A stretch of DNA of 64,000 bases from Acidimicrobiales bacterium (GTDB lineage Bacteria > Actinomycetota > Acidimicrobiia > Acidimicrobiales > MedAcidi-G1): NCBI GenBank assembly GCA_028823445.1, contig JAPKBH010000007.1, positions 1 through 64,000 on the forward strand. The letters are read 5' to 3'. Shown here one piece after another: positions 16,991-52,354 of this stretch; position 1 is the stretch's first letter; each line of letters begins with the position of its first letter. The notes under the pieces were generated by a model, which was not told the origin of the DNA, did no database searches, and saw only the letters and a program-made list of their open reading frames with translations. A program made the translations under genes and the position numbers.

Positions 16991-17024
16991 GACGGCGCTA
17001 ACGGAAAGATTCGTTAGCGCCGTC
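16991..17024 (+). terminator. 13-bp perfect hairpin between binding protein and ABC ATPase (attenuator)
   Basis: GACGGCGCTAACG (16991-17003) and CGTTAGCGCCGTC (17012-17024) are perfect complements with an 8-base loop. The stem is GC-rich, but only ACCGCGTTTAAT follows, not a proper U-tract. It fits a partial terminator or RNA-stabilising stem-loop at the 3' end of the binding-protein message, common where the binding protein is needed in excess over the permease. Confidence 0.75.
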
Positions 17025-26270: not shown

Positions 26271-27488
26271 ATGGAAGATCGACCCCGCACACTGCGGGCC
26301 ATGCTGGCCGAAGCAAAAGACACTTCGGAATTAATGGTGGACTTGGCTTACGCCTCGGTTTACTTCAATGACCCAGACATGGCCGAAGAAGTAGAAGAAC
26401 TCGAAGGCCATATGAGCGACCTGGTGCACGACATGCGCGCCGTGTGTGTTTTAGCGGCTCGTAGCGCTCGCGAGGCCGAAGGCATGTCGTCGGTGCTGCA
26501 GGTGGTTTCTGCCATCGAACGCATGGGCAACGATGCGGTAGACATTGCCCATATCGTGACCAAAAAATTGGGAATACCACACCAACTGGTGGCCGACCTC
26601 TCGGACGCCGAAGAAGTTTCGCATCGCGTACTAGTCAGTGAAGGCTCGCACATGGCACACCGTCCTCTCTCCGCTTTGGAATTAACGGTACAAGCCGGCA
26701 TGAGCGTGATGGCTATTCACAGAGGCCGCAACTGGATTACCGATATTGATGGCGACACGGTGCTGGTCCCCGATGATGTGTTGTTTTTGCGTGGGTCGCC
26801 AGAAGGCATTACCCGGCTTCGCGAGTTGGCGGCCGCCCCAGTGTGGGAACCACCGCGAGCAGAGGATGGCCCCGCAGTCACTGACTTGGACCGAGCAGTT
26901 GACGTGCTGGTCGAGATGAAAAACCTTTCGGAGGCGGCGGTTGGTTTGGCCTACAGCGCTTTGGTGCTGGCCGACCGTGGTTTAGCCGCCGAGGTATGCC
27001 ACCTTGAGGATCGTCTCGACGAGATGAAAGAAAATCTTGAACTGTGGGTGCTGCGCTCGGCGGGCGACAACATTGACCCAGCAGCACTGCGTGGGTTGCT
27101 GCACCTTGCGGAAGCTGCTGAAGACTTAGGCGACCAAGCACAAGCCATGGTGTGGCTTATTGAAAAAGAAGAAGAACTCCACCCAATCTTAGGCATTGCT
27201 CTTGGGGAAGCCGATGAGGTGGTGGTGCGCTACCCCATAGCGGCCGGGTCGGCTGCTGAGGAGTCCACACTGTCGGACTTGCAATGGAACGTTGAGCCAG
27301 GATTCACGGTGCTGGCTATTCGCCGCGGCGGCCGATACGTCTACCGGCCGCGAGGGAAGAACCGTTTGCTGGTGGGCGACGAGATCATCGCCAGCGGCCC
27401 CGATGAAGGCTGCCCCATGCTGGCTCGCATGTGCGGATGGAACCTAGTGGTCGACGAAGACGGCGACAACCAACTCGAACCCGCCTAA
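26271..27488 (+). CDS. PhoU-TrkA_C duplicated regulatory protein
   Basis: A 405-residue soluble protein with an internal duplication: a PhoU-like helical block (about 5-90), a TrkA_C/RCK-C domain (about 115-195, ending in DDVLFLRGSPEGI), a second PhoU-like block (about 205-295) and a second TrkA_C domain (about 310-395). The paired elements GMSVMAIHRGRNWI and GFTVLAIRRGGRYV show the repeat. Such proteins are found next to potassium or SLC41-type transporters and are thought to bind ligands that gate them. The AGGAA site 5 bases upstream supports ATG 26271. Function as regulator of the adjacent MgtE-like protein is inferred. Confidence 0.85.
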   Translation: MEDRPRTLRAMLAEAKDTSELMVDLAYASVYFNDPDMAEEVEELEGHMSDLVHDMRAVCVLAARSAREAEGMSSVLQVVSAIERMGNDAVDIAHIVTKKLGIPHQLVADLSDAEEVSHRVLVSEGSHMAHRPLSALELTVQAGMSVMAIHRGRNWITDIDGDTVLVPDDVLFLRGSPEGITRLRELAAAPVWEPPRAEDGPAVTDLDRAVDVLVEMKNLSEAAVGLAYSALVLADRGLAAEVCHLEDRLDEMKENLELWVLRSAGDNIDPAALRGLLHLAEAAEDLGDQAQAMVWLIEKEEELHPILGIALGEADEVVVRYPIAAGSAAEESTLSDLQWNVEPGFTVLAIRRGGRYVYRPRGKNRLLVGDEIIASGPDEGCPMLARMCGWNLVVDEDGDNQLEPA

Positions 27489-27528
27489 CTCCGTTACATG
27501 GGGACAGTCCCCATGTAACGGAGTTAGG
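27484..27528. repeat. 45-bp palindrome (22+1+22), probable bidirectional terminator or REP-like element
   Basis: Arms 27484-27505 and 27507-27528 are perfect complements around one central A. The core is ATGGGGACAGTCCCCAT. It overlaps the stop codon of the PhoU/TrkA-C gene and lies between two convergent genes, 16 bases before the end of the SPFH gene. An RNA copy would fold into a very stable stem. Two other single-centre palindromes occur in the window (44416-44448 and 52326-52354), and this one shares the GGGG(A/T)C-N-G(A/T)CCCC core with the first of them. Confidence 0.85.
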
Positions 27529-27543
27529 CAAGTGGTTGGCGAA

Positions 27544-28491
27544 TTATTCGGCGGGGTCTTCGCCGGTAAAGAGTTCGGCAATGGCGCCTAAGGAGCCCAT
27601 AGTGGAGCTCAACTCAGCAGGCAAGAAAATCTTGGTGGCCTGGCCATCGGCAATAGTGCCCAACGCCTCAAGGTACTTGATGGCTAACAAATCTGGCGTG
27701 GGGTTGCCCTCATGAATGGCTCCATAAACGCTGCGAATAGCTTGCGCCTCACCCTGAGCCACTGTGTCTTGGCGGTAGCGCTCGGCATCAGCCACCGCTT
27801 CAATGGCTTGTGCCTGACCTTCCGCTCGAAGAATTTCCTGCTGCTTTACCCCTTCTGCGGTGAGGATGGCTGATTGTTTCTCGCCTTCCGCCCGGGTAAT
27901 CTCGGCTTCCTTTACCCCATCGGCTTCTAGTACCACCGCTCGACGGGTTCGCTCGGCTTTCATTTGCTCGTGCATGGCGTGCATAACGTCGGCCGGTGGG
28001 TCGATGCGCTGGATCTCTACTCGTACTACTCGCACCCCCCATTTGTCGGTAGCGTCATCAAGCACTTCGCGTAAAGCCACGTTGACGGTGTCTCGAGAAG
28101 TTAACGCTGAATCAAGCGACATGTCACCAATTACGTTACGTAAGTTTGTTTGCGCCAACTTGGTGATGGCTAAAACAAAGTTAGCTACGTTATAAATCAA
28201 CCGTTGAGCATCGGTTGGTTCGTAATAAATAACCGCATCAACGGTCACCGTCACGTTGTCTTTCGTAATGACCTCTTGTGGCGGTACGTCAATGACCCGT
28301 TCACGCATATCAATTTTGGTCATGGACTGAATAACTGGGACGATCAACTTTAAGCCGGGCTCAACGGTGCCCTTATAACGCCCCAGTTGCTCAATGACCC
28401 CTTTTTGATAGGGACGGACAATCTTGATTCCCGCGGCCATCCAAATAAACAAGACGAACGCAAAAACACCGAGGAAAATTACTGCTGCCAT
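27544..28491 (-). CDS. SPFH/stomatin-family membrane protein (QmcA-like)
   Basis: A 315-residue protein with one N-terminal membrane segment (about 2-22), an SPFH/band-7 domain (IVRPYQKGVIEQLGRYKGTV onward, to about 190) and a coiled-coil C-terminal part rich in Glu/Ala/Gln with repeated AEGxxQ units. It belongs to the slipin/QmcA group, which assembles into large membrane microdomain cages. The NfeD gene lies 12 bases upstream on the same strand; this pairing is conserved across bacteria and supports the call. Confidence 0.92.
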   Translation of the reverse strand: MAAVIFLGVFAFVLFIWMAAGIKIVRPYQKGVIEQLGRYKGTVEPGLKLIVPVIQSMTKIDMRERVIDVPPQEVITKDNVTVTVDAVIYYEPTDAQRLIYNVANFVLAITKLAQTNLRNVIGDMSLDSALTSRDTVNVALREVLDDATDKWGVRVVRVEIQRIDPPADVMHAMHEQMKAERTRRAVVLEADGVKEAEITRAEGEKQSAILTAEGVKQQEILRAEGQAQAIEAVADAERYRQDTVAQGEAQAIRSVYGAIHEGNPTPDLLAIKYLEALGTIADGQATKIFLPAELSSTMGSLGAIAELFTGEDPAE

Positions 28492-44408: not shown

Positions 44409-44415
44409 CCCCAAA

Positions 44416-44448
44416 CCTCACACCTGGGGTCTGACCCCAGGTGTGAGG
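44416..44448. repeat. 33-bp palindrome (16+1+16) after the HAD gene
   Basis: Arms 44416-44431 and 44433-44448 are perfect complements around one T; the core is CCTGGGGTCTGACCCCAGG. An outer extension, CAAACC (412-417) against GGTTTG (453-458), could lengthen the stem with a small bulge. It lies 7 bases after the HAD stop and 36 bases before the exonuclease start. It shares the GGGG(A/T)C-N-G(A/T)CCCC core with 27484-27528. Likely a terminator or mobile REP-like element. Confidence 0.85.
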
Positions 44449-44483
44449 TGGAGGTTTGTTGGTAGTTGGGGTAGGTTTTGTTT

Positions 44484-52325: not shown

Positions 52326-52354
52326 CGTCATGTCGCCTCTGAGGCGACATGACG
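52326..52354. repeat. 29-bp palindrome (14+1+14) between convergent genes
   Basis: Arms 52326-52339 and 52341-52354 are perfect complements around a central T; the core is TGTCGCCTCTGAGGCGACA. It lies in the 145-base gap between the membrane-protein gene and the PEPCK gene, both ending here, so it fits a bidirectional terminator. Its arm sequence differs from the two GGGG-core palindromes, but the single-base centre and post-stop location are the same. Apart from this element the gap shows nothing else. Confidence 0.85.

Follow-up and report, generated by a model that had tools for sequence, protein, structure and literature searches.

Three long palindromes stand at gene ends in the 64,000-nucleotide stretch of contig JAPKBH010000007.1 that was analyzed here (the window), and the question they raise is whether they are terminators or members of a repeat family moved by a transposase encoded elsewhere, both of which had been proposed from the sequence alone (the original prediction). 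All three are present and built around a single base as predicted, far beyond what chance would give (Table 1). The extent given beforehand for the third (52326-52354) was right, and those for the other two (27484-27528 and 44416-44448) were each one base short per side. When the whole window was scanned for arms of at least 14 bases with loops of 0 to 10, these three palindromes only were returned; among 20 windows simulated under a first-order Markov model the longest arm was at most 11 bases, with means per window of 2.2, 0.35, and 0.05 for arms of 9, 10, and 11 bases, respectively. A one-base centre was found in 9 of the 15 strong hairpin rows (two of which are one hairpin) in 384 kb comprising the window and two further contigs, and strong hairpins with such a centre were absent from two simulations. 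A chance origin is ruled out by the Markov simulations together with a reversed-pattern control given below. A known structured RNA was rejected, as no Rfam match lies within the window, as was a plasmid origin, since a plasmid collection gave just one partial match, to palindrome 2. The sole other strong inverted repeat within the window is a hairpin at 16991-17024 whose 13-base arms are perfect and enclose an 8-base loop; it does not belong to the palindrome family.

Table 1. Single-base-centre palindromes of the window
Feature	Position	Strand	Arm length (bases)	Centre	Core	Arm
Palindrome 1	27483..27529	.	23	A	GGGGAC-A-GTCCCC	TCCGTTACAT
Palindrome 2	44415..44449	.	17	T	GGGGTC-T-GACCCC	CCTCACACCT
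Palindrome 3	52326..52354	.	14	T	CGCCTC-T-GAGGCG	CGTCATGT

Palindrome 1 lies in the gap where a TrkA_C/PhoU-domain gene and a Band_7 gene converge and overlaps the stop codon of the open reading frame at 26271-27488, on the TrkA_C/PhoU side. Palindrome 2 lies between two plus-strand genes (HAD hydrolase and Exo_endo_phos) and starts 6 bases after a stop codon, and palindrome 3 lies in a convergent gap adjoining a PEPCK gene and starts 78 bases after a stop codon. The outermost arm of palindrome 1 (GCCTAA/TTAGGC) may have been copied in inverted orientation from the end of the gene, although both genes that flank this site end in similar codons in the sister species G096. The predicted core GGGG(A/T)C-N-G(A/T)CCCC is common to palindromes 1 and 2, whereas that of palindrome 3 differs, and no second copy of the palindrome 3 type (up to 2 mismatches) was found elsewhere in this genome. 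In G096 the palindrome 3 type is kept at the orthologous site and is present at one further site.

The original prediction had called for a genome-wide count and had named a lack of further copies among the results that would speak against it; further copies do exist. Across the 1.93 Mb of this genome GGGGWCNGWCCCC, the core common to palindromes 1 and 2, was found at 25 places, compared with 0 for the reversed pattern. Copies at 24 of these places look genuine; one (L015) was dropped and counted as chance, as it lies in a coding frame and has no arms. Among the 24, L020 has poor arms, and a tandem second core at L021 was not counted as a site. From about position 2355 of L021 a tandem repeat with a TTTCTGAAGTTTGGG-like unit adjoins the palindrome, and its alignment with the G096 region (L132) suggests unlike tandem copy numbers in the two species. 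The core is constant across the family and the arms, of which the longest perfect ones have 24 bases, fall into groups that include TCCGTTACAT, TTCGTGAGGT, TTCGTGCTGT, CCTCACACCT, CAAGACACGT, and AACCGAACCT. As judged from simple longest-ORF calls, 12 of the 25 places are in convergent gaps, 9 in tandem gaps, and 0 in divergent gaps, with 3 inside a called ORF and 1 at a contig edge; the background of gaps of at least 30 bases in the 384 kb is 20 convergent, 80 tandem, and 46 divergent.

Two genes with a Y1_Tnp domain are encoded in the genome, on contigs C37 and C68. The C37 gene bears out the expectation of a RAYT-class Y1 transposase encoded elsewhere, and palindromes of this kind flank the gene itself, with one family member just upstream and a damaged one, reading AGGGTCAG, over the stop codon. 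Both have the arm CTGCTTACCT, which none of the dispersed copies carries, and the inverted repeat around the gene (L074) scores 20, with the motif GGGGWSAS included. The protein has 292 amino acids and matches Pfam Y1_Tnp above the cut-off, whereas its match to NCBIfam REP_Tyr_transpos is below the cut-off (49.6 of 80 bits). It has the HuH pair and the Y---NP motif of class 2 Y1 transposases; across 42 aligned relatives H60-Y-H62 and Y119 are invariant, and N123 and P124 are conserved in at least 90%. The best PDB match of the predicted structure (mean pLDDT, 88.5) is the REP-bound RAYT 4er8 (E value, 7.5e-7), and the C-terminal part of the model matches DnaA domain IV (1j1v; TMt, 0.86). HTH_23 was below its cut-off against the single protein and no Pfam HTH cut-off was reached; the C-terminal HTH or DnaA-like domain is instead identified by this model match and by the family profile, which matched DnaA chains with an E value of 3.5e-12. 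The C68 gene (L025, 41-697) is a second Y1 transposase with REP-like ends of the GTAG type (GTAGGGGAGCTGCTTGCCGCTCC and GGGCGCAGCAAGCGGCGCCCCTAC), and it was rejected as the source of the palindromes because these ends are unlike them. Two distinct RAYT-class systems therefore share this genome. A GTAG sequence similar to the C68 ends adjoins a palindrome in G096 (L160).

The palindromes fit self-complementary terminal inverted repeats (TIRs) of the kind that belong to a TIRYT, meaning a Y1 transposase of the RAYT class whose end resembles DnaA. Both the name and the GGGGWSAS motif are taken from Di Nocera et al. 2013 (PMC3733652), and most TIRYTs fall in TnpA_REP subclass 2.1, which was present in 14.9% of the strains surveyed by Quentin et al. 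2018 (PMC6006769). Of the REP reading in the original prediction, the genome-wide family and the RAYT-class Y1 gene stand, but the palindromes lack what defines a REP. A GTAG REP has an unpaired GTAG at one foot and a short stem with a loop of 2 to 3 bases, whereas no such tag is seen in the flanks shown, the centre is one base, and arms reach 24 bases. In a CGTC REP the CGTC at one end is unpaired; palindrome 3 starts with CGTC, but these bases are paired within the stem. What is found is a gene flanked by terminal inverted repeats together with dispersed copies of such repeats, and this kind of system is already known, as TIRYT/TIRtron repeats, from 2013 and 2018. The likeness, as far as the accessible parts of the two papers go, includes a RAYT-like Y1 gene whose product has HuH and Y---NP and ends in a DnaA/HTH-like part, flanking inverted repeats with ends of the GGGGWSAS type, some TIRs that are self-complementary, and moderately abundant dispersed copies, some of them paired. 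The copies studied here differ in that almost every one is a single perfect palindrome, its centre one base long and its arms interchangeable. GTAG REPs and REPINs with their RAYTs resemble them in being palindromes that follow genes and are associated with a Y1 transposase, but here there is no GTAG tag, the centre is one base, the perfect arms are longer, and the dispersed sites stay in place as the arms of the occupant change.

The link between gene and repeat was examined in 397 genomes of the order, with homologues accepted at an E value of 1e-12 or better. A TIRYT homologue was found in 36 genomes, of which 21 had at least 10 cores, compared with 3 of the 361 genomes without one (Fisher P = 2e-22; the 3 of 361 and the family tallies were read off a table by eye). 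The 21 genomes are spread over eight families, with 12 from a single family, so that the Fisher test overstates independence. The three high-count genomes without a homologue are G002 (11 cores), G123 (23 cores), and G049 (10 cores, with 10 also in its reversed control); in G123 the gene has perhaps been lost or has diverged beyond the threshold. Fewer than 10 cores were found in 15 of the 36 genomes with a homologue, including three with none at all (G134, G139, and G273). As at least one core is present in 277 of the 397 genomes, small core numbers represent background. Within the genus, two of the eight genomes have Y1 genes and 25 and 18 cores, and the others, several of them incomplete, have 0, 0, 0, 0, 0, and 1. 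A strong association of this kind contrasts with the 2013 paper, the accessible part of which reports no obvious correlation (PMC3733652).

Self-palindromes on both sides of the gene were rejected as a general rule, as they were found in just 3 of 63 uncut relatives (among 80), and a broader inverted-repeat test was used for this reason. Flanking inverted repeats scored at least 12 in 68 of 99 TIRYT relatives; among 99 mismatched pairs used as the control, 11 did so, and the highest score was 19. In this test 106 relatives had been entered, 99 were usable, and L190, L204, L215, and L220 of the 80 named relatives were left out. The exact GGGGWSAS motif is present in 17 of these 68 repeats, and many start with GGGGTCA. 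In G134, a genome without any GGGGWCNGWCCCC, two one-base-centre palindromes (L079, 1149-1181 and 2060-2090) flank the TIRYT homologue; their core, GTCTC-A-GAGAC with the arm CCGGACGGTTT, recalls palindrome 3 of the window.

To follow individual sites, the genome was compared with G096, which has 74 to 94% identity at the compared flanks (mean, 85%) and is a sister species. A palindrome is also present in G096 at 22 of the 24 dispersed sites (20 found by script and two, L006 and L022, by eye). The copy at L006 is swapped and broken by indels, only a remnant is left at L007, and L020 is a bare core in both species; the arm statistics for 22 pairs omit these three and include the palindrome upstream of the TIRYT gene. 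In the other direction, no palindrome was found here at three G096 sites (L136, L129, and L124, the first and last with one flank aligned), a degenerate one was found at a fourth (L128), and L134 was dropped and counted as chance, as it lies in a coding frame. Across the stretch of G096 that is syntenic with the window, one-base-centre palindromes are present at exactly the three window sites. The palindrome 1 gap holds another palindrome in G096, with the arm GTGTTTACCC and the core CGGGTC-T-GACCCC, elsewhere in the gap. At the palindrome 2 site the core is the same and the arm is TTCCGAACCT, compared with CCTCACACCT here. The G096 palindrome at this site (L125, 1507) appears to provide the gene upstream with its stop codon (GTC-TGA), and the end of that gene is rewritten compared with this genome.

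Changed arms are common across the shared sites. At L005, for example, GGGGAC with TTCGTGAGGT here corresponds to the palindrome 3 type in G096, and at L014 AACCGAACCT corresponds to a GGTGAAA type with a GGCC core. Mean arm identity was at most 7.5 of 10 at 11 of the 22 pairs, usually with both sides differing, and 8 of these 11 changed pairs gave P values of <0.05 at an assumed identity of 85% per base. In the changed pairs, the arm of the sister species matched an arm at another site at 8 or more of 10 bases in 9 of 11 cases, and the arm of this genome did so in 10 of 11, whereas after shuffling of the arm letters the mean for the sister arms was 0.08 of 11 (maximum, 2 in 2,000 trials). The agreement of arms, of a possible 10, was 8.9 and 9.0 within a copy, 7.4 at the same site between species, and 5.1 between nonorthologous sites; arms agreed better within a copy than between species at 13 of the 22 pairs and less well at 4 (P = 0.006). 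At the 11 sites with mostly kept arms, the 176 position pairs included 9 compensated changes, 10 one-sided changes, and 1 two-sided change left unpaired, and at some sites of the same type the centre base differs (A or T). Two sites (L016 and L017) are hybrids in which a single arm is of a foreign type, the outer part of L018 still holds a remnant of the sister-species type, and at L021 a second palindrome lies beside the shared one. From these comparisons the sites appear to have a fixed address, a mostly constant centre, and arms that change yet match each other, a pattern suggesting that sequence is exchanged at the core or close to it and that one arm is then corrected against the other.

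Two genomes of another genus, G392 and G196, were also inspected (for G392, regions in or near which all 28 listed places lie except C124 and C246; for G196, only those listed except C36 and C45). The core is often paired there, with 57 or about 100 bases between cores, and the arms are of one or two species-specific types. In one case (L280/L305), a site after the same stop codon is shared, with the core in the same place and each species having its own arms.

We consider it probable that the palindromes are dispersed, self-complementary TIR copies of a TIRYT system that have spread to gene 3' ends, where the sites are kept and the arms turn over. If they were instead bidirectional terminators, under selection for a hairpin at the gene end, the arms could drift as long as they paired. 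This explanation, which we regard as unlikely, is consistent with the absence of divergent gaps among the occupied sites and the excess of convergent ones, with the very stable RNA hairpins (z scores of -10.2, -6.8, and -5.3), and with the run of four T or four A residues found on at least one side at 12 of the 24 sites genome-wide (on both sides at 5). For the copies in the window the predicted terminator function is not supported, however, as none of the three has such a run at a distance of 13 to 30 bases from its centre, and no terminator-like site was called in the palindrome 1 region (27300-27700). Moreover, the L005 palindrome adjoins a separate GC-rich stem with a T run (sequence read by eye), and drift would neither match new arms to other copies, as the sister arms do, nor tie copy number to TIRYT genes. 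We read the gene-end placement as tolerance of a mobile element, for which effects on termination or mRNA are possible and not required.

The change of arms could also be produced without exchange at old sites, if unlike family members had inserted independently after the species split into the same gene-end hot spots. Insertion and loss differences between the species do exist, the second palindrome at L021 is of the kind expected, and the shifted position in the palindrome 1 gap would fit independent insertion equally well. Centres that coincide within about 10 bases at several changed sites (for example, L009, L014, L016, L018, L019b, and L024) are difficult to reconcile with it, as are the hybrids at L016 and L017 and the outer remnant at L018, which fresh insertions would not be expected to leave, and the plainly vertical copies at other sites, making this account improbable as well. 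Least likely of all is that template-switch mutation inside each palindrome explains every arm change, with no exchange between copies. Template switching is known to bring the two arms into agreement, and the centre can be inverted by it (PMC8794818), with arm homogenization and loop inversion both described (PMC8604942; PMC8794818), and the compensated pair changes and A/T differences of the centre at some same-type sites are as it would predict. It copies arm onto arm and imports no new arm from another locus, however, whereas 9 of 11 sister arms match another site; it is therefore already insufficient alone for the strong arm changes, and is probably part of the process. Compensatory stem changes are also known in REPINs (PMC3116915). 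The nearest published idea to the arm change, in the accessible text, is the "orthoswitch," in which one REP class gives way to another at a RAYT gene (Nunvar et al. 2013, PMC3686654).

Under the preferred reading, that of dispersed TIRYT repeats, the C37 Y1 (HuH) transposase most likely recognizes the GGGGTCA end motif when this forms a hairpin in single-stranded DNA and would carry the short elements to the 3' ends of genes, places at which their presence is nearly harmless. An occupied site would usually be kept while its arms turn over. Since one-armed hybrids are seen, arm sequence may be exchanged between members of the family by way of their common core, and since compensated pair changes are seen, hairpin-templated correction may then make both arms match again. 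Sequence comparison shows the family, its link to the gene, the sharing of sites, and the concerted change of arms; we infer which enzyme moves or exchanges the palindromes and that they are largely selfish rather than required terminators. A bolder version, which we advance as no better than a tentative possibility, is that the sites are lasting docking places, with the core GGGGTC-N-GACCCC as the address at which the TIRYT would swap hairpins or arms in place, the arms then being rematched.

In the literature searched, which most subscription papers fall outside, no account was found of this core family or of arms that change while the sites stay fixed, and such change is not described for TIRYTs or TIRtrons in the accessible parts of PMC3733652 and PMC6006769. 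The turnover of arms at kept sites is thus the part of the system not found in that literature, in which TIRYTs are seldom named despite the 14.9% of strains (PMC6006769). With its strong link between the gene and the number of palindromes, and with shared sites whose hairpins differ between two sister species while each matches itself, this family would make the spread of such repeats and the concerted evolution of their arms directly testable.
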